This document shows, piece after piece, positions 41,754 to 62,321 of a DNA stretch of 64,000 bases (within the stretch, counting starts at the first letter, position 1; each line of letters begins with the position of its first letter). Under the pieces are notes generated by a model. That model searched no databases. It had not been told where the DNA came from and saw only the letters and a program-made list of their open reading frames with translations. The position numbers and the translations under genes are program-made. Source of the DNA: a virus; the IMG/VR virus record IMGVR_UViG_3300043446_004155, positions 18,625-82,624 of that record. One strand, written 5' to 3'.

Positions 41754-41828
41754 CGGGGATTAGCTCAGTTTGGCCAGAGCGCTGCGTTTGGGACGCAGAT
41801 GCCGCAGGTTCAAATCCTGCATCTCCGA
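41754..41828 (+). tRNA. tRNA-Pro (anticodon UGG)
   Basis: Full cloverleaf: acceptor CGGGGAT/ATCTCCG (one G.U), D-stem GCTC/GAGC, anticodon stem CTGCG/CGCAG with loop TTTGGGA giving anticodon TGG, T-arm GCAGG-TTCAAAT-CCTGC, discriminator A. C1-G72 is the bacterial tRNA-Pro identity pair. CCA is not encoded. It reads CCA, CCG and other Pro codons by wobble. Confidence 0.95.
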
Positions 41829-49159: not shown

Positions 49160-49279
49160 TCAAATGGTGTTGAATTGGGATTGAAGTTTGTTGAGCACAT
49201 AGGTCAGCAGCATTCCTGCCGCTGCCCAAAGTAAATCTTTAACAACAGGAATAACAATGCCAAGGATGGATTCAAACAT
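49160..49279 (-). CDS. 39-aa membrane mini-protein
   Basis: MFESILGIVIPVVKDLLWAA is followed by AGMLLTYVLNKLQSQFNTI: one long or two short hydrophobic helices with amphipathic ends. It is the first gene after leader element A and ends 2 nt before the Gp157-like start, so operon position supports it. Holin-like or membrane-modulating; unproven. Confidence 0.55.
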   Translation of the reverse strand: MFESILGIVIPVVKDLLWAAAGMLLTYVLNKLQSQFNTI

Positions 49280-49300: not shown

Positions 49301-49328
49301 TGGTCAGTTTAAAGTCATGACCAGGACC
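49301..49328 (-). promoter_or_regulatory. Conserved leader hairpin, copy A
   Basis: Stem arms TGGTCA/TGACCA enclose the loop GTTTAAAGTCA (plus-strand reading) next to GGACC. The gene starts 21 nt further on, with a G-free leader and no Shine-Dalgarno. It shares loop and flank with copies B-E but has different, still complementary, stem arms. Confidence 0.75.
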
Positions 49329-49333
49329 ATGAA

Positions 49334-49717
49334 TCAATCGTTGGCAATACCGTTAAGACCAGCTTTGGTAATGGTTACCAAGTTACTGATGTAATCAGTA
49401 AGTGCATCAACCTTTGCACTAAGTGATTGGACTTCTGCCATTAGCTCTTCCCTGGTGGGAGTGATACCAAAGATCTCAACCGTTGCTTCTTTCAAAGCCT
49501 CCGGATTGTTGCTCTTTTGGTAACGCCGACAGTCATCATTGGTTGTGTACACAGCTTCCTGGTACAGATCCAAGATTGTTTTGAAGTCTGCATTACCAAC
49601 ACCTTCTTCTGCCATGATGTTGCAGGTGTCTAAGTACAGCTTGGCAGAAGCACGAATGTTCTTATTAAAGAACTCACTGTACTGTTCAGACGTTAAACCG
49701 TAAGTGTCAATCGACAT
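49334..49717 (-). CDS. Hypothetical helical protein (127 aa)
   Basis: MSIDTYGLTSEQYSEFFNKN: this ATG overlaps the upstream gene's last codons by 11 nt, a natural coupling; the longer frame inside that gene is a shadow. Helical and acidic with a Leu-rich C-terminal heptad segment (LMAEVQSLSAKVDALTDYIS). No family recognised. Confidence 0.6.
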   Translation of the reverse strand: MSIDTYGLTSEQYSEFFNKNIRASAKLYLDTCNIMAEEGVGNADFKTILDLYQEAVYTTNDDCRRYQKSNNPEALKEATVEIFGITPTREELMAEVQSLSAKVDALTDYISNLVTITKAGLNGIAND

Positions 49718-49898
49718 GAGAGTCAAGAGCATTGTGTAATGCGTCAAGCATAAAGGCTTTTTGACCTTCTTCACCAAGGGATGTCCAGTACTCCATCTCT
49801 GGATCTGTTTCATCCCAGGTGACGGTGATAGTCATGGTGCCATCCGGCTCATCAAGGCATTCAATCTTGAGCTTTTCGATCCAGTTCAGATTCGACAT
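49707..49898 (-). CDS. Hypothetical protein (63 aa)
   Basis: MSNLNWIEKLKIECLDEPDG then TMTITVTWDETDPEMEYWTS: a small beta-alpha protein, acidic. The beta-strand-then-helix layout resembles the product at 52674 (TRITVTFNAVF…). An in-frame ATG five codons earlier is possible. It overlaps its neighbours on both sides. Confidence 0.55.
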   Translation of the reverse strand: MSNLNWIEKLKIECLDEPDGTMTITVTWDETDPEMEYWTSLGEEGQKAFMLDALHNALDSHVD

Positions 49899-50091
49899 GG
49901 CTAATGAGGACATTGATTGCGTAGTCTTCGTGGTGCATCTTAAGGTCAGCGGCTAGCTTGACAAGCTCCCAGTGGGTGTCTTCAGGGATTTCAAGGTCAT
50001 AACATTTGTCGCCAGGGATTGATGAAATGCGTGGTTGCATGGCTAGTTGACGTGCGTATTCAAGGATGTCATCAAAGATTAAATCACTCAT
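49861..50091 (-). CDS. Hypothetical protein (76 aa)
   Basis: MSDLIFDDILEYARQLAMQP then a compact domain with DTHWELVKLAADLKMHHEDY. Acidic and helical. ATGA overlap with the upstream 313-aa gene and a 38-nt overlap with the next gene indicate a coupled operon. Function unknown. Confidence 0.6.
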   Translation of the reverse strand: MSDLIFDDILEYARQLAMQPRISSIPGDKCYDLEIPEDTHWELVKLAADLKMHHEDYAINVLISHVESELDRKAQD

Positions 50092-51029
50092 TTCTTAATT
50101 GCAGACTTGAGTTGTGGTAATGAGGTGCCAGGAAATGGAGCATAACCAGCCTCCATCATATTGAAGAACAGATCCCAGGCATCGTTCTGTGTGAACACCT
50201 CCTTAGGTTTGTAGGTACGCCAATGGCTAAGCGGAGCCTGCGCACCAGATTTGGTGTGAAGCAAAACAAAGCGTCCATCACTGGTGTGATCCACAGGCGG
50301 TGCATACCACCAAGCCACACACTTATCAGGTGTGCCACTGGGGCTGGCATTCCTTACTTCCGTGCGTTTGCATAGAAGCTCCCTGTACTTGTTGAACCAA
50401 GTCAGGTGGATGCACCAGGGCTTGAATCCCTGGATCTCTTCTTTGAAAGTAGCAAGGTTACCGAGCTGACGTTGAAAGGACCCACACGAGCATGTAGGTT
50501 CGCCAAAGATGGGCCGTTGTTCAGAACTTTCATCCAGTTCAGAGTCCATATCAAGCGGCCGATCCGCAAGCCGCATTCCGTCTGGCGCAACCAAATGGCC
50601 CAGGTCGGTCTGATCAGACTGAAGAAGGGTCGTGACTTTAGCTGGGTCTGACAGATGAATGAATTTGTCAGCCCAATGCGCCTGAAGCTTGGCATTGGAA
50701 CTCAGGTGTCCGAGTGCGTGCGTGTAGTTCCAGCCCTTAAACAGTATATAAGCATTGTGATGCCATACACTAGGGCCACGATAGTTGGGGCCAAGATACG
50801 AAAAGAAATCCTTAATACGGTTAGTGTAATGCTGGAATGCCTTGCAAATTAATTCCCGGTTGTAAGTCTGCTGACTACCATCATGACGCACCACAAGGCA
50901 ATCATCACCTCGCAGATAGATCCCAGCAATGCCGGTGTCATCAAAATCCTGGTAGGCACGGCGGATGTTCGTGCGTGTGTAGATACACGCCTGCGCCGCA
51001 TTGAGTTCCGTCTGGAGTGGAGTGGACAT
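50088..51029 (-). CDS. SWIM-like zinc-finger protein (313 aa)
   Basis: The middle contains CSCGSFQRQLGNLATFKEEI then QGFKPWCIHLTWF (about residues 184-216): a C-x-C-x(n)-C-x-H SWIM pattern that binds zinc and contacts DNA or protein. The N-terminus is a helical and beta mix (IRRAYQDFDDTGIAGIYLRG). The ATG is preceded by an unusually long G-free leader of about 35 nt with CTCAACCC repeats. Role unknown. Confidence 0.6.
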   Translation of the reverse strand: MSTPLQTELNAAQACIYTRTNIRRAYQDFDDTGIAGIYLRGDDCLVVRHDGSQQTYNRELICKAFQHYTNRIKDFFSYLGPNYRGPSVWHHNAYILFKGWNYTHALGHLSSNAKLQAHWADKFIHLSDPAKVTTLLQSDQTDLGHLVAPDGMRLADRPLDMDSELDESSEQRPIFGEPTCSCGSFQRQLGNLATFKEEIQGFKPWCIHLTWFNKYRELLCKRTEVRNASPSGTPDKCVAWWYAPPVDHTSDGRFVLLHTKSGAQAPLSHWRTYKPKEVFTQNDAWDLFFNMMEAGYAPFPGTSLPQLKSAIKK

Positions 51030-51059
51030 TGGGTTGAGTTGGGTTGAGTGAATGAGGAG

Positions 51060-51269
51060 TTAGACGTGCCAGAAGGAGTCGTCCTCCTGGTTCCTCTCCT
51101 TGAGCGTAGCATCATGCTTGGCCTTTTGGTAGGCGGCTTTCCCCATTCGATAGGTTCCATAAAGAACGGCTGCCCAGCAAACGGGGTTACCAAGGATAGC
51201 TGCAATTGAACCAGCGACAACTGCTGTTGCGCCTGCGGTTTTGAGAGCGGACTTTTCTTCAGGTTTCAT
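51060..51269 (-). CDS. Small membrane protein (69 aa)
   Basis: MKPEEKSALKTAGATAVVAG leads into a hydrophobic hairpin (SIAAILGNPVCWAAVLYG) and a charged C-terminus. One or two short membrane helices. Located between SWIM-like and unknown genes; possible membrane modulator. Confidence 0.55.
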   Translation of the reverse strand: MKPEEKSALKTAGATAVVAGSIAAILGNPVCWAAVLYGTYRMGKAAYQKAKHDATLKERNQEDDSFWHV

Positions 51270-51349
51270 TGTGTGATTGTTAACACAAACGGAAAGTTTG
51301 AATGTGTTTTAAATAGATGAGTAGAATTAGTGTAACAATTTAATACACA

Positions 51350-51607
51350 ATGGACGAAATCAAGTACGTACCGTTAACCAAATTCCAGATTGAACCAACG
51401 CTTGATGATAAGTTTTGGTTAGAAAAAATCAAACGGTCAATTCAGGATTGTGATTCGGTAAGTGCCTTGAAAGAAATGGCGACCTTGCTTGCGCAGATCG
51501 CCACGAATCGTCAAGGTGTTATTCGTGGGTTGGTCCAAGACATGTTCATCTTCAACAATGTTTCAGTTGAACCTGACGGTTTGGCCAACCCAGAAATCAA
51601 ACCTTAA
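51350..51607 (+). CDS. Hypothetical protein, isolated rightward gene
   Basis: 85 residues: MDEIKYVPLTKFQIEPTLDD, then a helical section (DSVSALKEMATLLAQIATNR) and a hydrophobic end. It is one of few rightward genes in the leftward right arm and overlaps the convergent gene by 4 nt. Codon pattern and ordered helices suggest it is real. Function unknown. Confidence 0.6.
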   Translation: MDEIKYVPLTKFQIEPTLDDKFWLEKIKRSIQDCDSVSALKEMATLLAQIATNRQGVIRGLVQDMFIFNNVSVEPDGLANPEIKP

Positions 51608-52620
51608 AGACCCTCGTCCTCACCAGTCATGGGGTCACGAGCAGGCAGTGCCTTGACTTCAAGTGCATCCGTGGTACGGGACACAGGAAGAATCTCAACA
51701 CCTTGCTTGATGCCATAGGCACCACCCAGCTTCTCAGCATCCTGCTTGGCATGCTGATTGATGTAATCGTTGAACATCTCCTGGAACTTCCAGGTTGATT
51801 CACGATCTTCATCGGGAATCGAGAGACGGCTCAGTGATTCAATCGCTGCATCCTGATTGCTGTAATCAGGAATCTCAAAGGATTCAATGGCGCAGATCTC
51901 TACGTTGTTTGCACCACGCATGTCATTGACAAGCACCGGGCAGAACACCGTAGTGGCATAAAACTTCTCATTGAAGCTCAGCGGAATCTCAGAGTCCAGT
52001 GCTTTTGACAGACACTTGGACATCTCCTTTTCATACATCCGAATCTTCTCAGATGCATCAGTGCCATTGAGACCCTTCAGCGTGAGCACCATGGGGATGT
52101 CATGGGCACGCTTGTTGTCCTGGGTAACGATATAGATCAGATACTTTGTACGCACACTGTACTTACGCTTGTACATCTCGCCCTTGCTGTTGGCAAGGTC
52201 GGCTGCAATCTTATCGGCTTCCCAAAGTTCTTTGACTTCAGGTGAATCAAATGTGCCAACCACCTGTCGCATTCCAGTGGTTTCTTCCACCATCAAAGGT
52301 GAACGCAGCAGAACCTGAACACGTGGCTCAGTAAAGTTCAGTCCTTCCTCGATGGAAGTATTAGGCGCCATGCCAAAGGTTTGTTTGTAGTCCCAGATGA
52401 CAGAGCCCTTGACAAAATCCGATTCAGTGGCTGTCCACTTGCAGTTGTCCAGATCAGATTTACGAACAAACCAACCGCGTGTTTTTGATTTGTTGAGGGG
52501 TTGAATGGTGACAAGGTTTTGGTAGCCAGATACAAATTCCTTGGATTGAAACATCCGGAAGGAATCAAGTCCTCGGGTTGCAAGCGCAGTGGTTTTCTTG
52601 GTGGTCATGGAAGAGGTCAT
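51604..52620 (-). CDS. Hypothetical protein, cyanobacterial/cyanophage type (338 aa)
   Basis: I start at the ATG giving MTSSMTTKKTTALATRGLDS; the 18 codons upstream in frame coincide with leader element B and are therefore untranslated. The body has GWFVRKSDLDNCKWTATESD and KYLIYIVTQDNKRAH with alternating beta strands, then an acidic C-terminus. It follows the SSB gene group and may bind DNA, from context only. Confidence 0.55.
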   Translation of the reverse strand: MTSSMTTKKTTALATRGLDSFRMFQSKEFVSGYQNLVTIQPLNKSKTRGWFVRKSDLDNCKWTATESDFVKGSVIWDYKQTFGMAPNTSIEEGLNFTEPRVQVLLRSPLMVEETTGMRQVVGTFDSPEVKELWEADKIAADLANSKGEMYKRKYSVRTKYLIYIVTQDNKRAHDIPMVLTLKGLNGTDASEKIRMYEKEMSKCLSKALDSEIPLSFNEKFYATTVFCPVLVNDMRGANNVEICAIESFEIPDYSNQDAAIESLSRLSIPDEDRESTWKFQEMFNDYINQHAKQDAEKLGGAYGIKQGVEILPVSRTTDALEVKALPARDPMTGEDEGL

Positions 52621-52640
52621 TGTTAGTTCGTAGTCAGGAG

Positions 52641-52668
52641 TGGACAGTTTTACGTCATGTCCAGGACG
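52641..52668 (-). promoter_or_regulatory. Conserved leader hairpin, copy B
   Basis: Stem arms TGGACA/TGTCCA around loop GTTTTACGTCA, flank GGACG. The proposed start is 20 nt away. Its presence inside the annotated-looking N-terminal extension of the downstream gene decides that gene's start. Confidence 0.75.
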
Positions 52669-52673
52669 TGCCA

Positions 52674-52922
52674 TCAGGTTAGTTGGTCTTGCTGCAAAGG
52701 CAAAGCAGTGACTAGATTTTCTTTACATTCAAAGTAATCTTTAGCAGCTTGGGCCATAGCGCCATAGATGTTGTCATCATGATGGCCGCAGCCACGCATG
52801 AAGTCCACCATTTGCCGCACTAATTCGTCCGTAAAAACCGCATTGAAAGTTACGGTGATACGGGTGGTTCCATCAATGTGCTGCAGAACAAACTGATCGT
52901 TGGTTGTTTGCACCTCAGTCAT
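52674..52922 (-). CDS. Hypothetical protein (82 aa)
   Basis: MTEVQTTNDQFVLQHIDGTT then TRITVTFNAVFTDELVRQMV: a strand-helix protein similar in layout to the product at 49707. GCGHHDDNIYG may bind a metal. Its ATG shares a base with the SSB gene's stop, so translation is coupled. Confidence 0.55.
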   Translation of the reverse strand: MTEVQTTNDQFVLQHIDGTTRITVTFNAVFTDELVRQMVDFMRGCGHHDDNIYGAMAQAAKDYFECKENLVTALPLQQDQLT

Positions 52923-53737
52923 CAGAAGGGAGCCTCTTCAAGATCGGGTGCATTGCCGTAGTGTCCTGGCAGGTCTGGCAGTCCACCACCGGAAGCAACG
53001 TTCCAGGGGTCTTGGTTGTCTTCAGCAGTGCGGCCACCCCAGAGCGGTGCCACGTTGTCAGAACTGGCAACCACAGTTTGAGATCGGATGGTTTGTGATG
53101 CTGTATCACCGGATGCTTTTGGAGCAAGGGTCATGGATACCAGCTGGATCTTGGTGGCGTAGCGCCGCTGGTTGCTTTCTTTGTCTTGCCACGCATCAGT
53201 CACCAATCTGCCATTGATAGTCAGGCCAGTTCCTTTGCGCGTGAAGTCAACAAGCAGTTGAGCATTATTCAGTTTGTCGTTGTGTGAATTGATGGCATAG
53301 AAATTGAAGAGGTCAGCTTGATTCCGGCCAGTGTTCACAGACAGCGTCTGATTGCAAATCATCAGACCATCTGCCGTTGTCTTGAAGGCACGGGCATCGT
53401 CCTGCTGGATGTCCTTGACACAACGTCCACTAAGGATAACTGTATTTAAGATGGGGAATGCTTCTGTGACAGGAGCAATGACACCACCGTGAAGTGAATA
53501 GGTGCGTGACTCCAGATCAAAACGCAGCTTGGCGCCATGGATGTAGATCAATGCACCTTTTGGTGTACGTGCAAAACGCTCAGAGTTTTTGCCATAAACA
53601 TTGAGTTCGATTGGAGTTGCAGCTTTGTTACCTACTGGAGGCAACAAAACATTACAGCGCAGTGCAGTTGAAGTAGCCGAGGTATAAACCTCACGCGGTT
53701 CTTCAGTGGTCTGCGCACAAACAAAAGCTTGGTTCAT
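52922..53737 (-). CDS. Single-stranded DNA-binding protein with two OB-like parts
   Basis: 271 residues. The second half (ILNTVILSGRCVKDIQQDDA, LSVNTGRNQADLFNFYAINS, TGLTINGRLVTDAWQDKESN, RRYATKIQLVSMTL) is an SSB OB-fold; the first half (TSATSTALRCNVLLPPVGNK) looks like another. The disordered tail ends DLEEAPF, close to the bacterial SSB acidic tip that recruits replication proteins. Leader element C precedes the start. It coats ssDNA for the neighbouring polymerase and primase. Confidence 0.75.
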   Translation of the reverse strand: MNQAFVCAQTTEEPREVYTSATSTALRCNVLLPPVGNKAATPIELNVYGKNSERFARTPKGALIYIHGAKLRFDLESRTYSLHGGVIAPVTEAFPILNTVILSGRCVKDIQQDDARAFKTTADGLMICNQTLSVNTGRNQADLFNFYAINSHNDKLNNAQLLVDFTRKGTGLTINGRLVTDAWQDKESNQRRYATKIQLVSMTLAPKASGDTASQTIRSQTVVASSDNVAPLWGGRTAEDNQDPWNVASGGGLPDLPGHYGNAPDLEEAPF

Positions 53738-53759
53738 GATGTTCCAAAGGGTTGTGTGA

Positions 53760-53789
53760 GAGGCAGTTTAACGTCTTACCTCAAGGACG
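53760..53789 (-). promoter_or_regulatory. Conserved leader hairpin, copy C
   Basis: Stem arms GAGGCA/TACCTC (one G.T pair) around loop GTTTAACGTCT, flank AGGACG, 22 nt before the SSB start. It overlaps the end of the zinc-ribbon gene. Confidence 0.7.
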
Positions 53790-54027
53790 AGACCACAACT
53801 TCACCATTTGAATCTATGGGTCGACCTTCTCGATCCCAACATTGATGACAATCAGGACACTGATAATGATGACAGCGGTCAGTGCCGAGATACTCCACGC
53901 CAAATACACGACTAAAGAACTTCGAATCGGGTGAATAATAACCCTTATCAATTGACTCTTGTGGGATATAAGAAATTACCCAGTTTGCATTACAGCTGGG
54001 ACAGTTCTCTAGCTTGGTGATGTCCAT
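53776..54027 (-). CDS. Zinc-ribbon protein (83 aa)
   Basis: CPSC near residue 9 and CPDC near residue 58 frame a small beta domain, a zinc-ribbon layout; HHYQCPDCHQCWDREGRP adds a further Cys. It starts 4 nt after the polymerase gene's stop. Possible transcription or replication cofactor; no family named. Confidence 0.6.
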   Translation of the reverse strand: MDITKLENCPSCNANWVISYIPQESIDKGYYSPDSKFFSRVFGVEYLGTDRCHHYQCPDCHQCWDREGRPIDSNGEVVVSSLR

Positions 54028-54031
54028 GGTG

Positions 54032-55858
54032 TTAGTGCGTTTCTGCCCATGACGAGCCTACGCGAGAGTCGCCTTCTATAAGACAACGGAACTTAAAGAA
54101 TTCCTGAGCTTGCGGGAAAGCAAGCATGGCTTGTTCTCGGATTGCTTCAGTGTGTTGAGGCTTGCATGCAATCTGAACTTCATCATGCACCATCAACAGT
54201 TGTTGCCAGTCATTGTCATACTCCAAACCAAGATTGTTCTTGATGTTGTTTTGGATGTTGATGACAACTTGCTTCATCAAGATTGCACCAGCTGATTGCA
54301 ACAACACATTCAATCCTTTAAATGCAGAACGGCAATACAACTGACGGCGATCCAAACCAATGAGGTAACCACGTAGACCAATTGTTTTATCAATCTCCAA
54401 CTTCAATGCTTTCAATGCTGGTACACCACGCATGAAACCATCGATAGCATCACGGCCAAGCATGCGGAGTTCATCTTCATCTTTCAAGTTGGGATCAATG
54501 ATTGAACCAGCCTTGACAGATCCACATCCATAGAGCATGCCGTAGAGCAAACGCTTGCTGATGTCCCTGGTCTCTACACCAAATTGTTTTTGGTTGTAGG
54601 TATGGATGTCAATGGATTCATCAGTTACCAGACGAGCGTATTCTCCGTCATCCCAGATTGCCAAGTATCCAGCAAGGCAACGTAACTCAAGTGCTTTAGC
54701 GTCAATACCAATGAGATCCCACCCGTCAGGAGGAGTGAACAAACTTCGACACTCCTTTCCATAGGGGGAGTAACCTGCTGGGACCTGACCCATATTTGGA
54801 TTGCGGTGTGAACAGCGCCCAGTAATGCAACCGTTAGTAATAACGTCGCCGTGGATACGACCAGTGTCATTGTTGTACAGCTTGATCCAAGAGTTGTTGC
54901 CACTAGCAATTTGACCAAGACGCTTTTTGACCAACATGTATTCAGTCAGAGGTTTGGCTTCTGGATAAGGCAGTTGTTCTAGTACCTCATCATTAACAAT
55001 TGGATTTCCTTTCTCAGTAAACTTCTCTGGTTTCCATCCGTACTTGCTGCCAAGTCGATCAACAATCTGCTCACGAGATCCTGGATTGAACTCTTCGTAG
55101 CTGACTTTGGTGAAAGGTTGTCCTTTGACATAACCACGTTTAACGTTGTTGACCTTTGGTACAAACACCTGTTCGTGTTTGATAGGTGGAAAAATTTGTT
55201 TTAGCTGTGCCTCAAGTTCTGTTTCTTTTGCTCGCAGCACATCCACCAAATCAAGAGCAGCATCCAAATCGAAAGGAACACCTGATCGAATTTGTTTGTT
55301 AATCGCCAAAGCAAAGTCGTGCTCCAAGAGTAGGGATGATTCCGGGTAGTTTTGCGTGGCGATGAGCTGCCAAAGATTGAAGGTAACTGCCACGTCTTGG
55401 ACGCAGTAGTCAAGCATCTCTTGGCTGTACTCCGTAAAGTCTTTGAAGTCGATCTTATGGGTGGCCAAGCGCCATCCCCAAGCCTTAAGTGATGCGGATC
55501 CACATAGGTTCTTTGGAACCTGCGGATATTGTTCCGTGTCAAGTTCATAGAGTACCTCCTTGGGCCAGATCAAACGAGTGCAGATGAGTGTGTCAATAAT
55601 GCGTGCGTTGATTTCTACATCAGGAAATAGTTTCTTTAAGACTGGGATGTCATAAAAACAAATGTTGTGGCCAATAAGAACATCAGCACGACTGAGATGC
55701 TCAAGAGCAGAGTCGATGCTGCCAGGATCAAAAGACAAAAAGTTCCCACTGTGGATGTCATAGAGGACAATGCAGTGAACTTTGGAAGCTTTGTCATAAA
55801 GTCCATCCGTCTCAATGTCAAAGACGTACCAAGTTTCACTTTCTGAACTGGGCTTCAT
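54032..55858 (-). CDS. Family A DNA polymerase, T7-like
   Basis: About 608 residues. The 3'-5' exonuclease comes first: FDIETDG (D14, E16), then GHNICFYDIPVL and a YCVQDV late motif. The polymerase follows: motif A as DLIGIDAKALELRCLA, motif B RLLYGMLYGCG, motif C MVHDEVQ. This is the layout of T7 gp5 and cyanophage polymerases. I chose the ATG giving MKPSSESETWYVFDIETDG; a start 13 codons earlier is also possible and lies in the same overlap with the upstream gene. Confidence 0.9.
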   Translation of the reverse strand: MKPSSESETWYVFDIETDGLYDKASKVHCIVLYDIHSGNFLSFDPGSIDSALEHLSRADVLIGHNICFYDIPVLKKLFPDVEINARIIDTLICTRLIWPKEVLYELDTEQYPQVPKNLCGSASLKAWGWRLATHKIDFKDFTEYSQEMLDYCVQDVAVTFNLWQLIATQNYPESSLLLEHDFALAINKQIRSGVPFDLDAALDLVDVLRAKETELEAQLKQIFPPIKHEQVFVPKVNNVKRGYVKGQPFTKVSYEEFNPGSREQIVDRLGSKYGWKPEKFTEKGNPIVNDEVLEQLPYPEAKPLTEYMLVKKRLGQIASGNNSWIKLYNNDTGRIHGDVITNGCITGRCSHRNPNMGQVPAGYSPYGKECRSLFTPPDGWDLIGIDAKALELRCLAGYLAIWDDGEYARLVTDESIDIHTYNQKQFGVETRDISKRLLYGMLYGCGSVKAGSIIDPNLKDEDELRMLGRDAIDGFMRGVPALKALKLEIDKTIGLRGYLIGLDRRQLYCRSAFKGLNVLLQSAGAILMKQVVINIQNNIKNNLGLEYDNDWQQLLMVHDEVQIACKPQHTEAIREQAMLAFPQAQEFFKFRCLIEGDSRVGSSWAETH

Positions 55859-56069
55859 CTCGAACCTGGAGTTCTTCACTGGCAAGGCTGGTGTCATTTT
55901 TGTTAATCCACGTCAAGATCTGTTGTGCCCCAGCGCGATATGGATGGGAAAAGATCTTGCTCAGAGCTACTTCTGAATCTAGCGGAATTAACTGAAAAGA
56001 ATTAGAGGAGGCACAGGCGGTAATAGCAAATGGCATGCCGTCCTTCCATGTAGCAATGACGTAAGACAT
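55836..56069 (-). CDS. Hypothetical protein (77 aa)
   Basis: MSYVIATWKDGMPFAITACA then SSNSFQLIPLDSEVALSKIF: strand-rich start, helical end with INKNDTSLASEELQVRDEAQ. It overlaps the polymerase start. A hairpin with T-rich tail precedes it. Function unknown; possibly a polymerase accessory. Confidence 0.55.
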   Translation of the reverse strand: MSYVIATWKDGMPFAITACASSNSFQLIPLDSEVALSKIFSHPYRAGAQQILTWINKNDTSLASEELQVRDEAQFRK

Positions 56070-56078
56070 AAGAAATGA

Positions 56079-56105
56079 AAGACCGGACAGATGATATCCG
56101 ATCTT
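56079..56105 (-). terminator. Hairpin with T-rich tail
   Basis: On the minus strand AAGATCGGA and TCCGGTCTT pair over 9 bp (one G.T) and are followed by TCATTTC. It sits after the GP88-like gene and before the 77-aa gene, a weak terminator or attenuator ahead of the polymerase unit. Confidence 0.45.
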
Positions 56106-56124
56106 CCATTCGTGGCAAGTGCCT

Positions 56125-56895
56125 TCAAGTTATCTTCTGGTTTGATTTGCCGTATCCAACAAATCCCCCCTCCTTCTTACGTTGAGATATGGCTTGGCTT
56201 GCTTCGCTGCCAGCCTTCTGGGAACCATGGACCAACAGTGCAAAGTGCTTGTCGCCCAAGCAATGGCTGTCGTCATGGTCAATCTCAAGGCCAAGCTCTG
56301 CGGCCTGTTCTTCTGTGTACACAACGTGAGAAACCCGTTGGTACACATCGGGATACTTGTCAAGCAAGTAGTCAAGCGTACCACCGTGCGATGCCGTGAG
56401 ATAAAAGTTGGATGGGATCATGTCCCGCAGGTTGTACCACATCCCAAGGGACTTGGTGTAGGCATAGAACTTTTGTTCGGGTCTGCCTTGAGCAACCATC
56501 ATCCAAGCCTTCATGTAGTTCTCAGTCCAGAAATCACCAGATTCATGGATACGAATCAGTTTCTTGGGTGGGTGCATCAACAGTGAAAGGTCAATCAGAT
56601 CACGCAACAGCATGGCCTGGTTCCCATTCATGTGAATGGTTTCACGCAGCAAATCCCAGTTGTGCCAGCGTGCTTCTCGTACGTTAGGCCGTACCTCTGA
56701 CATAGCAGCAAAGCAACGAAAGTCCCGTTCTGCTGTGACGCCTGTGTACTGAGGCAGATCAGTGATGGCACCAGTGGTGCGATCAGCAAAGGTCTTGCAC
56801 ACACCGGCGTGTGGGCAGGAATAGCCAGCGGGCAGGCTAAAGATCAAGCGGTTGCTGAGCTTGCCATTGCCCTTGGAAAACTTGAGTAGTTTCAT
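56125..56895 (-). CDS. GP88-like cysteine protein
   Basis: 256 residues. SLPAGYSCPHAGVCKTFADR then FRCFAAMSEVRPNVREARWH, and LIRIHESGDFWTENYMKAWM with FYAYTKSLGMW match the phage GP88 domain family (named after mycobacteriophage gene 88-type proteins). The Cys cluster suggests metal binding; function unknown. Leader element D precedes the start. Confidence 0.75.
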   Translation of the reverse strand: MKLLKFSKGNGKLSNRLIFSLPAGYSCPHAGVCKTFADRTTGAITDLPQYTGVTAERDFRCFAAMSEVRPNVREARWHNWDLLRETIHMNGNQAMLLRDLIDLSLLMHPPKKLIRIHESGDFWTENYMKAWMMVAQGRPEQKFYAYTKSLGMWYNLRDMIPSNFYLTASHGGTLDYLLDKYPDVYQRVSHVVYTEEQAAELGLEIDHDDSHCLGDKHFALLVHGSQKAGSEASQAISQRKKEGGFVGYGKSNQKIT

Positions 56896-56915
56896 GGTTG
56901 AGTTGAGTTGTGGGG

Positions 56916-56943
56916 TAAGCAGTTTAACGTCATGCTTAGGACG
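56916..56943 (-). promoter_or_regulatory. Conserved leader hairpin, copy D
   Basis: Stem arms TAAGCA/TGCTTA around loop GTTTAACGTCA, flank GGACG. The 20 nt between stem and ATG read CCCCACAACTCAACTCAACC on the coding strand: G-free, no Shine-Dalgarno. Confidence 0.8.
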
Positions 56944-56957
56944 AAATTTAATTGTTA

Positions 56958-57347
56958 TTAGTTGCGCATGTAATACTCTTTTTGTATATTAAGGGGCACA
57001 CCGGCGTCATCAAAATCTTCAGGGTGTATTCCCTGGACAGTTAATTCATCTTCTTCGTCAACTCCTGGGATAACCAACCCAGTACCAATAGCATCAAGCA
57101 GTGACGAATCAAGGGCCAAATCCCTTAACTTATATGCCAAAAGAGCAACCTCTCTTGCACCTGCCATTTGCAAATCGTTTTCTTTGGATCCATACATGAG
57201 AAACAAACCAGCTGCTTGGTAATACAATGTTTCATTCTCCTCAGAATTTGGAGACATTGGATTTGCTTTAGCCAAAAGATCTCTGGCTTGTTGCAAAGCG
57301 TCTGCACGGGTAACACCCTCTTTGCGTTGAAAGAATGTGGCACTCAT
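56958..57347 (-). CDS. Hypothetical protein (129 aa)
   Basis: MSATFFQRKEGVTRADALQQ, then helical repeats (ARDLLAKANPM, YYQAAGLFLMYGSKEN) resembling TPR-like pairs, and an acidic C-terminus. Soluble. Starts 25 nt after leader element F with a G-free spacer. Function unknown. Confidence 0.55.
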   Translation of the reverse strand: MSATFFQRKEGVTRADALQQARDLLAKANPMSPNSEENETLYYQAAGLFLMYGSKENDLQMAGAREVALLAYKLRDLALDSSLLDAIGTGLVIPGVDEEDELTVQGIHPEDFDDAGVPLNIQKEYYMRN

Positions 57348-57372
57348 TGTGTTGAATGATTAGTTTTATTTA

Positions 57373-57400
57373 TGGGTGAGTTTAAGGACATCCCAGGTCC
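57373..57400 (-). promoter_or_regulatory. Leader hairpin, copy F (divergent)
   Basis: TGGGTG pairs with CATCCCA if one base is bulged; the loop keeps GTTTAA and the flank is GGTCC. Same position relative to its gene as copies A-E, but the loop and spacing have drifted. Confidence 0.5.
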
Positions 57401-57590
57401 ATAATGGTATGGGGTGTAGAAGAGCAGCGTCAACCCCGAGGGAATCAGAGTTTCTGCTGCTTCCTCTGGTTGGTAACTGAATGACCTTGCGGCTTGATCA
57501 CCGTGAGGTCACACCCTCATATGTTACGGCACGAACGACATCAGATACATCAATCGTCATATAGTTTCCGTATCAATAAATACAGAACCC
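57401..57590. other. Divergent intergenic region without a gene
   Basis: About 190 nt between a leftward and a rightward unit. GTGA-GG-TCAC is the only compact dyad. It must contain the rightward promoter for the DUF4278 gene, but no clear -35/-10 pair stands out. Confidence 0.4.
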
Positions 57591-57743
57591 ATGACGTTAA
57601 CGTATCGTGGTTGCAAATACAACCAAGAGGAGCAGGCACAGAAAGACAGAGCCTGGTGGAACTTGGCCCACCGTCCCTGGCTTTGCCTGACGTACCGTAA
57701 CATCTGCTACTTTCCTTTTGTTACTGGAGGTCAAATCAAATGA
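57591..57743 (+). CDS. DUF4278-like protein (50 aa)
   Basis: MTLTYRGCKYNQEEQAQKDR, then Trp-rich WWNLAHRPWLCLTYRNICYF. The opening (M-x-LTYRG-x-x-Y) is the DUF4278 signature of cyanobacterial and cyanophage proteins, and LTYRN repeats it. Its stop overlaps the next start (ATGA), so the pair is coupled. Function unknown. Confidence 0.65.
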   Translation: MTLTYRGCKYNQEEQAQKDRAWWNLAHRPWLCLTYRNICYFPFVTGGQIK

Positions 57744-57856
57744 ACAAAGCACTGATCGTCTACCTGGTGGACAAGCGGAAAAAGCAAGTACGCAAAAATG
57801 TGGAGTCCAAGCATGCCGTCACTGCATTAAAAAAACAAAGCGCCGCGACCTTCTGA
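57740..57856 (+). CDS. 38-aa basic mini-protein
   Basis: MNKALIVYLVDKRKKQVRKN then VESKHAVTALKKQSAATF. It begins in the ATGA overlap with the DUF4278-like gene, which strongly supports translation. Short strand followed by a basic helix. It ends 19 nt before the convergent thyX stop. Confidence 0.55.
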   Translation: MNKALIVYLVDKRKKQVRKNVESKHAVTALKKQSAATF

Positions 57857-57875
57857 TCGCCACTCTTTGAGTTCA

Positions 57876-58514
57876 TCAGTCTTCTGCAAAGGCTGCTTCT
57901 CCAATGATGGGGAATTCTTTGCAGAAGATTCTTTTGATTTCTCTGGCAATTTGTTGGTGCTCGAGTTGGGTTCCATTGGAGCAGCGGAGATCAAGATAGT
58001 GGATCCACGACCTGAGTGTACCGTTCATGAACAGACGGGTCTGTGTCGATAATGGCAGAATGGAGCGAGCACATTCCTTAGCAATACCATTGCTTACCAT
58101 CTCGCGATACAAATGTTCTGCGTTTTCATACAATTCACTGATGCGTCGATAATAATTACCAACAAGATCAGGAGATAAGTCATCAATACTGTTTTGCCTG
58201 TTTTTCTGATCTTGTCTACGTAAATGCGGAATAACAGCTGAGCCCAGTTCATTTGTGTCTGCATAACGCTGACTAAATTCCTGGAATGAGAATGACCGAT
58301 GACGAAGAATCTGTGGTGAGATTGCACGCGTCGTTTCAATCTCCACGCACATCCCTGCCATCTCAAATGGACTCCAGTGTTTGTGCTTGATCAGATACTG
58401 CAACAACCGTGGAGCAGTATCCATGTTGTCTTGGTTCTTGGGTGCAGAAACTCTTGCCATCTTGACAATGAGTTCTTCTGCGTTGGGTGTAACCCAGGTC
58501 AAGTTAACATGCAT
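57876..58514 (-). CDS. thyX: Flavin-dependent thymidylate synthase
   Basis: 212 residues. The ThyX motif RHR-x7-S is at 71-81 (RHRSFSFQEFS), followed by SQRYAD, and the later SILPLSTQTRLFMNGTLRSW with HYLDLRC carries FAD/dUMP-binding residues. It methylates dUMP to dTMP using FAD, NADPH and methylene-tetrahydrofolate. Works with the phage dCTP deaminase. ThyX is usual in cyanophages. Confidence 0.95.
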   Translation of the reverse strand: MHVNLTWVTPNAEELIVKMARVSAPKNQDNMDTAPRLLQYLIKHKHWSPFEMAGMCVEIETTRAISPQILRHRSFSFQEFSQRYADTNELGSAVIPHLRRQDQKNRQNSIDDLSPDLVGNYYRRISELYENAEHLYREMVSNGIAKECARSILPLSTQTRLFMNGTLRSWIHYLDLRCSNGTQLEHQQIAREIKRIFCKEFPIIGEAAFAED

Positions 58515-58517
58515 GAG

Positions 58518-58820
58518 TTACTCCACCTCAAATCCATAGCCTTCAGATTGTAGCCGTTGAAGTTGATCAACAGGACAGATCCTCATCTGTGCATGTTCGG
58601 TTGGAGTTTGGAGATGATCCCATCTGATCATCAAAAACTTTTGCTTGGCACCTGATTTATTTGGCTTGAGTTTGATGCCAACAACAGTGCCATAGCGCTG
58701 GGACCTGTACTGTTGAACACGCTCTTTGGTTTCATTGCGTACAGCAAAGATGCCATGAGCTTTAGGACGTTCTGCTACGCGATCACCAATCACGTAATCG
58801 TATTGACGTTTGGTAGTCAT
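58518..58820 (-). CDS. Hypothetical basic protein (100 aa)
   Basis: RQYDYVIGDRVAERPKAHGI then RYGTVVGIKLKPNKSGAKQK and a strand FLMIRWDHLQTPTEHAQMRI: a small SH3/KOW-like beta barrel with basic loops. It ends 3 nt before the thyX start and overlaps the next upstream gene by 4 nt. Nucleic-acid binding is plausible. Confidence 0.6.
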   Translation of the reverse strand: MTTKRQYDYVIGDRVAERPKAHGIFAVRNETKERVQQYRSQRYGTVVGIKLKPNKSGAKQKFLMIRWDHLQTPTEHAQMRICPVDQLQRLQSEGYGFEVE

Positions 58821-59221
58821 TTGGATTTCCAGAGTTGAAAGTGATTGCAGTCGTACGACTCAGCAGTGTCGTACTCAGGAAAGTCAAAGGCGCAGTAACA
58901 ACCATCAACGTTGTGCTGGCAATCACTGCATTTGTTAAGTGCTCTGAATTCAGATGGACTCACCCCAGAATGGGGTGGAACCACCCCGGATGTGAGTGGT
59001 TGATTTGTCATGAGCTTGTGGAGCTGCTCAACAAGATAGAGGTTGCGCTTGGCTTCTTCAAAGAAATCTGCTGATACTTCATGGGTTGTAACCCTGTAGC
59101 TACAGCAGTCGCATTTCTTGCGGCGCCTTGTTGATAGACCAGTCTTCCTGGATTCAATAACCCTGAGTCCAGGTTGATTGCATTGTGGACAGTCAGGAAG
59201 GATTGCCTTCTGAAACGCCAT
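58817..59221 (-). CDS. NrdR-like zinc-ribbon protein with second Cys cluster
   Basis: 134 residues. CPQCNQPGLRVIESRKTGLS then TRRRKKCDCCSYRVTTHEVS is close to the NrdR zinc ribbon (CP-x-C…V-x-x-SR…RRR-x-C-x-x-C-x-R-x-TT-x-E). The C-terminus has CSDCQHNVDGCYCAF, a second metal site. The ATP-cone of NrdR is missing. It may regulate transcription; overlaps its neighbours on both sides. Confidence 0.65.
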   Translation of the reverse strand: MAFQKAILPDCPQCNQPGLRVIESRKTGLSTRRRKKCDCCSYRVTTHEVSADFFEEAKRNLYLVEQLHKLMTNQPLTSGVVPPHSGVSPSEFRALNKCSDCQHNVDGCYCAFDFPEYDTAESYDCNHFQLWKSK

Positions 59222-59522
59222 TGCTTTCTTGAATGTTCAGTGAATCAAGTAGATCAGTCGTTTGCTCTGGTCCGATCAAACTAAATGCATCAACAATCAA
59301 TTGAACATTGGGCACCTCTTTGTAATGTGTGTTGAGGAATAGTTCGGCATACTCAAAATCATCAACTGATCTGGTTAATTTCAACATGATGTCTGACGGC
59401 ATCTCATCAACAATGCGTTGAACAATTGCTGTACGCACTTGATCCCATGCATGATCAGGGATTGCATCAGCAATAAGTTGAGTAATGTCAGTTGTTGATT
59501 CAGGTTGAAGTGGTGTGATCAT
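59193..59522 (-). CDS. Hypothetical acidic protein (109 aa)
   Basis: MITPLQPESTTDITQLIADA is the start; twelve codons upstream in frame run through the terminator and are excluded. Helical and acidic (DQVRTAIVQRIVDEMPSDIM, YAELFLNTHYKEVPNVQLIV). It overlaps the NrdR-like gene by 29 nt. No family recognised. Confidence 0.6.
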   Translation of the reverse strand: MITPLQPESTTDITQLIADAIPDHAWDQVRTAIVQRIVDEMPSDIMLKLTRSVDDFEYAELFLNTHYKEVPNVQLIVDAFSLIGPEQTTDLLDSLNIQESNGVSEGNPS

Positions 59523-59524
59523 GA

Positions 59525-59552
59525 AGAAAAGACCCCTGTCAAAGCAGGGGCC
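59525..59552 (-). terminator. Rho-independent terminator
   Basis: On the minus strand GGCCCCTG pairs with CAGGGGTC (one G.T) around a 6-nt loop, followed by TTTTC. It ends the transcript carrying tRNA-Leu and the gene at 59571, and lies 2 nt before the next start codon. Confidence 0.8.
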
Positions 59553-59570
59553 AAACATTCCGCATGAATC

Positions 59571-59933
59571 TTAGGCAGGTTCAGCCTGTGTGTCCAGGAC
59601 CTGGTCCATTAATCCTGACTCTTTGAGTCGATCCAACATGCCGCACATGATGGTGGCATGGGCATGGGTCTGTTCCATGAACAGCTTTGCCCGCTCTGCC
59701 GACATGGTATGGATACGGCCGGAGGGTTCCACATAACGCCAGCTGCCATCAGGCTGGGGATCACCCTGGAGGGCAAGACGTTCTGAGTTGTGTACGTACC
59801 GTAGTTCGAGGTTGTGATAGTCCTTAAGACCGTCAGCCGCTGTCCAGGTTGCTCCAAGGTTGTAACGCTGATCGTCATCAGTGTATGCGTGGAACTCAGG
59901 AATGAGATGTTTGAATGCAGCAAAGATTTGCAT
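59571..59933 (-). CDS. Hypothetical protein (120 aa)
   Basis: MQIFAAFKHLIPEFHAYTDD then YHNLELRYVHNSERLALQGD, beta-rich, and a helical C-terminus (MSAERAKLFMEQTHAHATIM). It lies 20 nt after tRNA-Leu on the same strand and is closed by a terminator. Function unknown. Confidence 0.6.
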   Translation of the reverse strand: MQIFAAFKHLIPEFHAYTDDDQRYNLGATWTAADGLKDYHNLELRYVHNSERLALQGDPQPDGSWRYVEPSGRIHTMSAERAKLFMEQTHAHATIMCGMLDRLKESGLMDQVLDTQAEPA

Positions 59934-59953
59934 GACTTGAATTGAGTTTGGGT

Positions 59954-60029
59954 TGGTAGCCGACCCCGGATTCGAACCGGGACTTGAGCGATTTTAAGTC
60001 GCTTGCCTCTGCCGTTGGGCTAGTCGGCC
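59954..60029 (-). tRNA. tRNA-Leu (anticodon UAA), class-I-shaped, CCA encoded
   Basis: Acceptor GGCCGAC/GTCGGCT (first pair G.U), D-stem GCC/GGC, anticodon stem AGCGA/TCGCT with loop CTTAAAA giving TAA, T-arm CCCGG-TTCGAAT-CCGGG, discriminator A and genomic CCA. The variable region is only CAAGT (5 nt), whereas bacterial leucine tRNAs normally have a long variable arm. The 5' end overlaps the stop region of the gene at 60020. Confidence 0.9.
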
Positions 60030-60238
60030 TCACTTGGACTTACGCTTACGTCAATTGACGCATGCTGCCAAGTGTGATCTTGAGGCAGGACTTCCATTCC
60101 GTAAGTCCAGCTATCGTAGTCATCCTCATTACGAGGATCTTCATCGATCAAGATGTACTGTGGTGAGTTGTCATGAATGTACTCACCAATGTTAGCCATG
60201 GCCATGGCGAGTAGTTGATCATCGGTGTAATCGGTCAT
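60020..60238 (-). CDS. Acidic hypothetical protein (72 aa)
   Basis: MTDYTDDQLLAMAMANIGEY then IHDNSPQYILIDEDPRNEDD. Strongly acidic, possibly a DNA mimic or host-protein binder. Its last codons and TAG stop lie inside the 5' end of tRNA-Leu (10-nt overlap), so tRNA processing would cut the message at its end. Confidence 0.6.
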   Translation of the reverse strand: MTDYTDDQLLAMAMANIGEYIHDNSPQYILIDEDPRNEDDYDSWTYGMEVLPQDHTWQHASIDVSVSPSEAD

Positions 60239-60246
60239 GGGTAGAA

Positions 60247-60276
60247 ACCAGCCCTAGTATCGAGGCTAAGGCTGGT
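60247..60276 (-). terminator. Hairpin between two leftward genes
   Basis: ACCAGCC and GGCTGGT form a perfect 7-bp stem with a long loop, followed by TTCTACCC on the minus strand. A weak terminator or attenuator after the PcfJ-like gene. Confidence 0.4.
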
Positions 60277-60289
60277 AAACCGTGCGGGC

Positions 60290-62014
60290 TCAGGCAGATT
60301 GTAGCTGCTTCTCCCGTTGTTGCAAGACCTCACGGAAGGCTTCCGTATAAGCCTCACGTTGGTCTTCAGTGAGCCGCTGGTTAGCGACACCAGCGATTTG
60401 TTTGACGGACATCAGGCCCATGTCAACGACCAGCTGGATGGTGAATGTGGGCTTACCATCAATCATGCATAGCACGATGAAGTGCTTACGCTTCTTGATG
60501 TCATCGGCATAGTGGGATGCAGAGCCGACGCAGTTACGTACGGCCTGGCCCCACATAGCCAACTGATGTGTGTCAACAGGCTGGAAGAACGACCAGGTCT
60601 CACCATTGCGTGTAACCCTGATTGGTTCAGGGAATAGATCTTGACGCAATGATTCGTTTGGATTCTGAATCTTCCAGGACTCAGCTTGCACATAGTCATG
60701 GAACTCATTGATGCGCCACCGTTTGGGTGGTGTGAGTTCATTGCCATGGTCAAGGATACGGATTGCCATGGAGAATGTGTCATTTAGTTCATAGAATCCA
60801 ATACGTGCATAACCAACTTCTGAGTCAGGACGAAGTAAATCTTGTGATTCAAGATACTTACGCAGCATTGTGAACATCGATGCAACTGGCATGTGTTCAC
60901 GTAACCAACTAACAAATGCATTTGAGCTGGTGCTGATGCTGCTTGTACGTACTTGACTCAGCCTGATGTAACGGAGTTCTTTGTAATAGGTTTGGTAGTA
61001 ATCAAGTGGGCAGTCAGGCCATATCTTGTTAATCCAGTCAATTGAATCAATGACATGGACAAAGGTTTTAAAGCCTTGAGTAATTGGCTTGCGCTGAGTA
61101 TTACCTGGGTCACTATATGCAAGTGTGCAGCGATCAAGCTCTGCTTGTAACAGCTTCTTAATTGCTGACTTGGAAATGATGTGACTGATTCTTTCCAATA
61201 CGCAAAACGTTGATGACGGGAAGTTAGGGTTCTTATTGAATTCAATTGTTGCATTAAGTAAGTTATCAACAGTTAGACCTTGCTTTAGGTCAAAACACTT
61301 TGCCATCATCGGAGGAAGGTCGGCTGCATCAAAAATGTTCTTGCAGCGCATACGATCAAACAATCCACGGGAGTCAGACCATGTAGGCATGTCTTCCCGT
61401 AGGCTTGCTTCGTATGGACGGATGCAATGCTCAATGATCTCGCGTCCTTTCTGGCAGTAAAGGTTAAAGGCTTGCCACTGGTAGGCACGCCAGCCACTGC
61501 CTTCACTTGATTCAATGTCACCCTTGGTGATGTTCATTGAGTAAGTAAAGGTCTGGACGCCACGAGCACCTTCGTGCTCGATGCACTTATCTTTGCTGGT
61601 CCAGATGTGGTGTGGTGCAGTCTTGGCAGCAGCCGCTGTGTTCTTGAATGCGTAGGCGTGGCCGTACACATACTGATCAGCTTCCTTCTTTGGAGGAAGC
61701 CATGCTGCATACCACACCTGTTCATAGTGATACAGGATGGCAATAACTTTGAGGCGAGCCTGCGGAGTTGCTACGTCCACAGGCGTGGTAAATACTCTGT
61801 AACGATCTGGCGCAGACTGCTGATTGATGTGATCAATCGCAGCTTGCTGATCTGATTCACGCACCACGTTATGTGGGATGAGGTGCGGAATGTTACCGAG
61901 TGGGTACTTAGCTTTCTTGGTTGATGTGGTCTTAGCCTGCTTAGCCAACACCTTTAGTGTTGGGTCATAAGCCAAGAGTTCGGTTTGCAGGTTGGAGGGA
62001 AGTTGGAATTGCAT
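60290..62014 (-). CDS. PcfJ-like protein (574 aa)
   Basis: The C-terminal 130 residues have WSFFQPVDTHQLAMWGQAVR then NCVGSASHYADDIKKRKHFI and GKPTFTIQLVVDMGLMSVKQ, the PcfJ-type domain (N-C-V-G…I…G-x-P-x-x-T-I-x-L…Q-x-x-G-x-x-N) known from conjugative plasmids and phages. The N-terminal 400 residues are unique. Role unknown. Leader element E precedes the start with a G-free spacer. Confidence 0.7.
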   Translation of the reverse strand: MQFQLPSNLQTELLAYDPTLKVLAKQAKTTSTKKAKYPLGNIPHLIPHNVVRESDQQAAIDHINQQSAPDRYRVFTTPVDVATPQARLKVIAILYHYEQVWYAAWLPPKKEADQYVYGHAYAFKNTAAAAKTAPHHIWTSKDKCIEHEGARGVQTFTYSMNITKGDIESSEGSGWRAYQWQAFNLYCQKGREIIEHCIRPYEASLREDMPTWSDSRGLFDRMRCKNIFDAADLPPMMAKCFDLKQGLTVDNLLNATIEFNKNPNFPSSTFCVLERISHIISKSAIKKLLQAELDRCTLAYSDPGNTQRKPITQGFKTFVHVIDSIDWINKIWPDCPLDYYQTYYKELRYIRLSQVRTSSISTSSNAFVSWLREHMPVASMFTMLRKYLESQDLLRPDSEVGYARIGFYELNDTFSMAIRILDHGNELTPPKRWRINEFHDYVQAESWKIQNPNESLRQDLFPEPIRVTRNGETWSFFQPVDTHQLAMWGQAVRNCVGSASHYADDIKKRKHFIVLCMIDGKPTFTIQLVVDMGLMSVKQIAGVANQRLTEDQREAYTEAFREVLQQREKQLQSA

Positions 62015-62036
62015 TGATTTGAGTGAGTAAATAGAA

Positions 62037-62064
62037 TGGGCAGTTTAACGTCATGCCCAGGACG
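62037..62064 (-). promoter_or_regulatory. Conserved leader hairpin, copy E
   Basis: Stem arms TGGGCA/TGCCCA around loop GTTTAACGTCA, flank GGACG, 22 nt before the ATG. The intervening leader is G-free and has no Shine-Dalgarno. The loop and flank are identical to copy D although four of six stem positions differ. Confidence 0.8.
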
Positions 62065-62069
62065 GTTGA

Positions 62070-62321
62070 TCAATCTAGGTCGTCATGTTCGACCAGTTCC
62101 CATTGAGGATCGAGCTGATCAAGATAGGCACAGAAGCCATCTTCATCAAGAGGGATTGGTTCCTCTGGATCCAACTCAACAGTTGTTGTGCATAGTGCAG
62201 GAGCCCATTCTTCAGGGTCGAGATGAGTTGCGTGATAGAGCAAACGCATCTCGTCAACAACTGCTGTAACAGTGACATGGGTATCAGTGAATGAGGTGTG
62301 TTCGATTGCAAGGACAGTCAT
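62070..62321 (-). CDS. Acidic hypothetical protein (83 aa)
   Basis: MTVLAIEHTSFTDTHVTVTA then strands and an acidic loop (LDPEEPIPLDEDGFCAYLDQ). It starts 2 nt after the preceding gene's stop and ends 5 nt before leader element E. Function unknown. Confidence 0.6.
   Translation of the reverse strand: MTVLAIEHTSFTDTHVTVTAVVDEMRLLYHATHLDPEEWAPALCTTTVELDPEEPIPLDEDGFCAYLDQLDPQWELVEHDDLD

Follow-up and report, generated by a model that had tools for sequence, protein, structure and literature searches.

What is the element that recurs ahead of the leftward genes in a 64,000-nucleotide (nt) stretch of viral DNA, and at what level does it act? This stretch, called the window here (positions 18,625 to 82,624 of IMG/VR record IMGVR_UViG_3300043446_004155), comes from an 82.6-kb virus record of an S-EIV1-like cyanophage; Synechococcus phage S-EIV1 is the closest isolate, with 67% identity in DNA polymerase A and 71% in the single-strand DNA-binding protein (SSB). 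A preliminary description had recognised five sites and a weaker sixth as hairpins with covarying 6-bp stems, an 11-nt loop and a conserved flank, GGACG or GGACC. We find that the element is almost certainly a pseudoknot, formed in the sense RNA and often lying just behind a stop codon, and that it probably belongs to the leader of the downstream gene.

The six sites have the coordinates, stems, loops and distances to a start codon (20-25 nt) originally given for them, and the structure and the covarying stem both stand; the hairpin form does not, as a second helix had been overlooked. The GGACG sequence is the reverse complement of the 5' CGTC(C), and its partner is the GACG within the loop. 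It is therefore one arm of a second helix rather than a separate conserved flank, and the element is an H-type pseudoknot of 28 nt, with a 4-bp stem 1 and a 6-bp stem 2 in the layout 4-1-6-1-4-6-6. Loop 1 is a single C, the junction is one base and loop 3 has 6 nt. The functional strand also has to be corrected to the minus strand, which is the sense strand of the leftward genes and on which the consensus reads YGUC-C-UNNNYA-N-GACR-NWAAAC-UGNNNA. Five of the six window sites follow the form CGTC/GGTC-C(TT)-6 nt-N-GACG/GACT-TWAAAC-6 nt, and then 20-25 nt and an ATG. The additional helix explains the site at 49301 (stem 1 GGTC/GACT) as well as the weakness of the sixth site at 57373, where stem 1 is GGAC/GTCC, a double compensatory change that recurs in loci L021, L022, L038-L040 and L048. 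The six copies are as follows.

62037 to 62064, minus strand: pseudoknot 6, CGTC-C-TGGGCA-T-GACG-TTAAAC-TGCCCA (covariance model E 3e-9); stem 1 pairs 62064-62061 with 62052-62049 and stem 2 pairs 62059-62054 with 62042-62037; begins 5 nt past the stop codon of open reading frame (ORF) 62070-62321.
57373 to 57400, minus strand: pseudoknot 5, the weak sixth site, GGAC-C-TGGGA-T-GTCC-TTAAAC-TCACCCA (E 0.1); stem 2 with a 2-nt bulge.
56916 to 56943, minus strand: pseudoknot 4, CGTC-C-TAAGCA-T-GACG-TTAAAC-TGCTTA (E 6e-9).
53760 to 53789, minus strand: pseudoknot 3, CGTC-CTT-GAGGTA-A-GACG-TTAAAC-TGCCTC (E 0.0016); loop 1 of 3 nt; overlaps the stop codon of ORF 53776-54027.
52641 to 52668, minus strand: pseudoknot 2, CGTC-C-TGGACA-T-GACG-TAAAAC-TGTCCA; begins 5 nt past the stop codon of ORF 52674-52922.
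49301 to 49328, minus strand: pseudoknot 1, GGTC-C-TGGTCA-T-GACT-TTAAAC-TGACCA; begins 5 nt past the stop codon of ORF 49334-49813.

The full set of covariance model E-values for these sites is 3e-9, 6e-9, 1.4e-8, 4e-7, 0.0016 and 0.1, the four best-scoring sites being in or near the training set of the model. The loop word alone, with up to two mismatches, is modestly enriched in the window (29 matches vs 16.8 +/- 4.2). When full pairing was required, a descriptor scan of 1.18 Mb (the window and polymerase-anchored relatives) recovered 105 elements, all on the coding strand, compared with none in five Markov-shuffled copies and none in the reversed sequence. Folding energies are unremarkable (z -1.7 to +0.9), so the support for the structure comes from covariation and not from stability. 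A simple hairpin was rejected.

Covariation was assessed on 81 distinct sequences, made up of sequence-pattern hits (IMG/VR, among the matches listed, and GTDB) and seven window and stem-1 variants. The pattern allowed the middle of stem 2 to be unpaired and left the outer stem 1 pair open between U.G and C.A. Across both stems 98.0% of cells are paired (stem 1 99.1%, stem 2 97.3%), against 87.4% after shuffling (0/500) and 18-48% in slid controls; the shuffle control does not keep phylogeny and the slid control does, and stem 1 swaps recur in unrelated phages. Double changes occur in five pairs and account for 112 cells, compared with 38 in shuffled sets (0/500), and the covariation score is 0.471 vs 0.244 in the control. 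In another set, which was selected for pairing, stem 1 also takes the forms GGAC/GTCC, AGTC/GACT, GGTC/GACC, ACAC/GTGT and CTAC/GTAG. Thus the loop pairs with the flank and both helices are compensated, which extends the original claim of covariation to a second stem and bears out its preference for a structure over a plain operator. The outer pairs of stem 1 are CG in 68 cases, UA in 39, UG in 36 and CA in 7, and the free columns of stem 2 contain 38 G.U and 9 A.C combinations. Since U.G lies far above A.C in both stems, the folding strand is the sense-strand RNA.

The position of the element relative to genes is also constrained. In 105 of 262 elements a stop codon occupies -8 to -6, which leaves 5 nt between it and the knot, compared with 7-33 elements at other offsets; it is the sole conserved upstream signal. 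Of 110 pairs of upstream and downstream gene families, 34 have a modal gap of 5 nt between stop and knot and 19 one of 6 nt, and shorter gaps hardly occur. A knot placed 5-6 nt past a stop must act in untranslated RNA, and the sequences compared indicate that the element forms in the sense RNA and stays outside the translated zone. On its other side, the spacer between knot and start codon contains 6% G in S-EIV1-like loci; in S-EIV1 the figure is 4%, against 17-19% before other genes. The spacer is nearly free of G and therefore unstructured. The idea that the element replaces a Shine-Dalgarno site was rejected, because most S-EIV1 genes are without one anyway (it is present in 17 of 104 non-element genes), and it is also contradicted by the Firmicutes copies, which lie far upstream of a normal site. 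The genes that follow the six copies, and one spacer as an example, are listed here.

62015 to 62036, minus strand: spacer from pseudoknot 6 to the start codon, 22 nt, G-poor and unstructured.
60290 to 62014, minus strand: g6, downstream of pseudoknot 6, 574 amino acids (aa), PcfJ-like (PF14284).
56958 to 57347, minus strand: g5, downstream of pseudoknot 5, 129 aa, no family match.
56125 to 56895, minus strand: g4, downstream of pseudoknot 4, 256 aa, GP88 family (PF17338).
52922 to 53737, minus strand: g3, downstream of pseudoknot 3, SSB (PF00436, phrog_44), 271 aa.
51604 to 52620, minus strand: g2, downstream of pseudoknot 2, 338 aa, DUF5895 (PF19247).
49160 to 49279, minus strand: g1, downstream of pseudoknot 1, a hydrophobic protein of 39 aa that is conserved across 40 related loci.

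PcfJ-like genes in S-EIV1-like phages retain the element whichever of at least five families stands upstream, and GP88 genes retain it after several. Judged from these arrangements, the element goes with the gene that follows it in S-EIV1-like phages. The window also carries genes for tRNA-Pro(TGG) and tRNA-Leu(TAA), at 41754-41828 and 59954-60029, respectively.

The covariance model (R1) finds copies in related phage records: 13 S-EIV1-like records have 4-7 copies each, always on a single strand per record, and the S-EIV1 genome has six, one of them immediately before the SSB gene. The element is not specific to cyanophages and also occurs in Firmicutes phages, Microviridae and bacterial operons. 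It occupies un-annotated gaps before scaffold or capsid genes in Staphylococcus phages 80 and B236, Lactobacillus Lj771, Streptococcus Javan271 and phage D6E; in a microvirus it sits between the peptidase and capsid genes, and in the T4-like cyanophage S-CRM01 it precedes gene 32. Pfam and PHROG scans added scaffold genes of several families, terminase, T7-like RNA polymerase, ribosomal protein L11, and Rrf2 and YHS proteins. For the most part these are genes expected to be highly expressed, such as scaffold and capsid genes, the Microviridae capsid gene and the gene for ribosomal protein L11. Matches in E. coli phage phiEcoM-GJ1 and in Vibrio phages look like chance or coding sequence.

A pattern scan of GTDB, with one genome per species, returned 67 stretches against about 4 expected from a base-count estimate (5e11 positions at about 37 bits). 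Several bases were invariant in the pattern, so the family is in truth more diverse than described here. In a host survey the element was present in 5 of 251 Bacilli, 0 of 229 Gammaproteobacteria and 20 of 145 Omnitrophota genomes. These counts would fit a host factor that Gammaproteobacteria lack, although the Bacilli difference is too slight to carry weight and the copies in Omnitrophota represent one conserved locus type. At a set of loci mainly from Omnitrophota (L199, L212, L214, L233, L235, L282-L290, L292-L301), a conserved small ORF (M...RPVAHCKEGCSxLSxxRR) has its stop inside the pseudoknot, and an Rrf2 gene is often next. At L204:2853-3360 the element precedes the gene for ribosomal protein L11, and the end of the ORF upstream looks NusG-like by eye. 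Tandem pseudoknots precede a YHS-domain gene at L246:4948-5003, the second with stem 1 GGTC/GACC.

No Rfam 15 family scored above its curated threshold at the element, either in the window (E up to 10) or at 29 other loci, and no prior description was found among open-licence papers. STAXI RNA (RF01728) gave no match above the cut-off in the four records searched; like the element it is a pseudoknot near SSB and DNA-handling genes, but it is tandem, with frequent UUCG tetraloops. DUF2800 RNA (RF02960) lies directly 3' of the pseudoknot in some Firmicutes mobile elements and is a separate structure, whose Rfam match begins one base past the knot. The pseudoknot abuts its 5' end at L239:1691-1877 and in L202, and the published DUF2800 motif may lack a 5' domain. 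Two further hairpins occur 3' of the pseudoknot. The first, in Firmicutes phage and prophage loci (L104, L139, L200, L209, L220, L264), has a conserved CWACCATA loop on varying complementary stems and immediately precedes the Shine-Dalgarno site; another copy apparently falls within the start of the gene in L200 and L220. The second, which combines a conserved GTT...TGAGT loop with stems that vary, precedes DUF4355 scaffold genes (L198, L258, L106, L203, L230).

The closest structural parallel is the operator of T4 gene 32, which combines a pseudoknot of about 28 nt with an unstructured leader that contains UUAAA repeats (PMC535899). RNase E cleaves the gene 32 mRNA at -71, adjacent to the knot (-67), and no T4 message is more stable; a 2010 review considered that the gene 32 pseudoknot may be the sole viral example in translational autoregulation (PMC3014915). 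The T4 leader (NC_000866) parses as TGCC-A-GCTATG-A-GGTA-AAGTGT-CATAGC, which is again 4-1-6-1-4-6-6. The leaders of T4, T2 and RB69 share with the element the length of 28 nt, this layout, the location upstream of an SSB gene (as in the window and S-EIV1), the unstructured leader behind the knot and a 5' part that can overlap the upstream ORF. They differ in that T4 is without the invariant loop 1 C and loop 3 AAAC, while the new element recurs ahead of several genes and has a wide distribution among unrelated phages and bacteria. No homology to T4 was found at the sequence level: R1 gave nothing above noise at the T4 leader. In cyanophages, the gene 32 leaders of S-CRM01 (stem 1 TGTC/GACA), S-H34 (GGTC/GACC), S-CREM2 (GGAC/GTCC) and S-B68 (TGAC/GTCA) all go on to carry YTAAAC. 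Stem 2 is shorter or irregular in these four, and R1 gives no score to the leaders of S-H34, S-CREM2 and S-B68, so they are weaker members of the family. Knot-less gene 32 leaders of other cyanomyoviruses (S-T4, S-SRM01, S-SCSM1 and Sf-CH8; L308, L310, L312, L313) have a TATAAT-like box close upstream instead.

From the analogy with T4 gene 32 we infer that the element is probably a cis-acting leader pseudoknot that works post-transcriptionally, setting the stability and translation of the downstream cistron. Of the options first considered, that of a 5' untranslated region (UTR) regulatory RNA is upheld. The knot, at the intercistronic border just behind the upstream stop, would form the head of the downstream gene's leader and mark off that cistron. 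It could block or delay agents that track along the mRNA, whether scanning ribosomes or, once the transcript has been processed, 5' nucleases, and would leave an unstructured leader accessible to ribosomes or a coating protein. In this way the downstream segment would gain its own stability and translation rate within a long operon transcript, and where an SSB or gp32 gene follows, that protein may also repress its own synthesis, with the knot as the nucleation site. It is possible, though we hold it only tentatively, that the element is a general mRNA insulator of phages and bacteria, a minimal knot placed just past the terminating ribosome that would shield the downstream mRNA from 5'-end-dependent decay.

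Three observations weigh against the preferred reading. A terminator-like hairpin directly follows the knot in L222, L224, L250 and L228, loci which better fit a 3'-UTR than a 5'-leader role; the Omnitrophota knot overlaps the stop codon of the conserved small ORF; and loops 1 and 3 are so strongly conserved in sequence that they could instead point to a specific ligand or protein.

If a protein is the partner, the knot could be a dedicated operator, bound by the phage SSB or another regulator that represses a regulon, as in T4 gp32 autoregulation. The element precedes SSB or gp32 genes in S-EIV1-like phages and in S-CRM01, its geometry is identical to that of the T4 operator, and a G-poor unstructured leader follows. 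We nevertheless regard this as unlikely, given that scaffold, terminase, RNA polymerase, L11 and Rrf2 genes are also preceded by the element, in organisms that share no SSB type, and that no common protein regulator is apparent.

A ligand would make the element a minimal riboswitch with interchangeable expression platforms. The preQ1-I riboswitch and other small H-type pseudoknots have such a small H-type fold in leaders, and the invariant loop bases and the varied downstream modules (terminators, hairpins with their own conserved loops, DUF2800 RNA) would suit this role. The conserved bases are other than those of preQ1-I, stem 2 does not overlap the Shine-Dalgarno site or an anti-terminator where examined, the regulated genes are structural or replicative rather than metabolic, and no Rfam riboswitch matched in the window or at the 29 other loci searched; a sensor of this kind therefore appears improbable.

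We give an equally low chance to a transcription element, whether an N4-type hairpin promoter, an antiterminator RNA or a terminator. Behind the knot, a few phages (80, Lj771 and the microvirus) have a U-run, and the B236 knot (L265:2493-2531, KP893290) is annotated as a BPROM promoter (P5R). Most copies are without a U-run, the covariation of the pseudoknot and the U.G bias of the sense strand mark an RNA, and the wide host range rules out a single phage polymerase. The hairpin promoter initially suggested finds no support, as the 11-nt loop takes part in the second helix and only the stop codon, and no promoter motif, is fixed upstream.

Stimulation of readthrough or frameshifting is highly improbable: the element shares with luteovirus and retrovirus recoding pseudoknots a compact H-type fold at ribosomal spacing (typically 5-9 nt, and a 5-6 nt spacer meets the ribosome unwinding site; PMC5009743), but it has neither a conserved open frame past the stop nor a conserved slippery site, the frames from upstream to downstream gene are not conserved, and common variants (TAAAAC, TGACCA) carry zero-frame stops. 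For these reasons we read the 5-6 nt gap as a limit set by the ribosome, the closest position at which the knot would survive a ribosome terminating upstream.

A leader pseudoknot remains the reading we prefer. Pseudoknots of the same layout stand before SSB, scaffold or capsid and RNA polymerase genes in unrelated phages and in several bacterial phyla, and matched no RNA family at the loci searched. This distribution suggests a reusable post-transcriptional part for expression at the level of the cistron inside operons. The element is small enough for a full test by compensatory mutation, and it can serve directly as a marker in genome annotation, for leaders at present labelled as promoters or not labelled at all. 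If it does act as an insulator, it would be a bacterial counterpart of exonuclease-resistant RNAs, reused in tailed DNA phages, single-stranded DNA phages and host operons.

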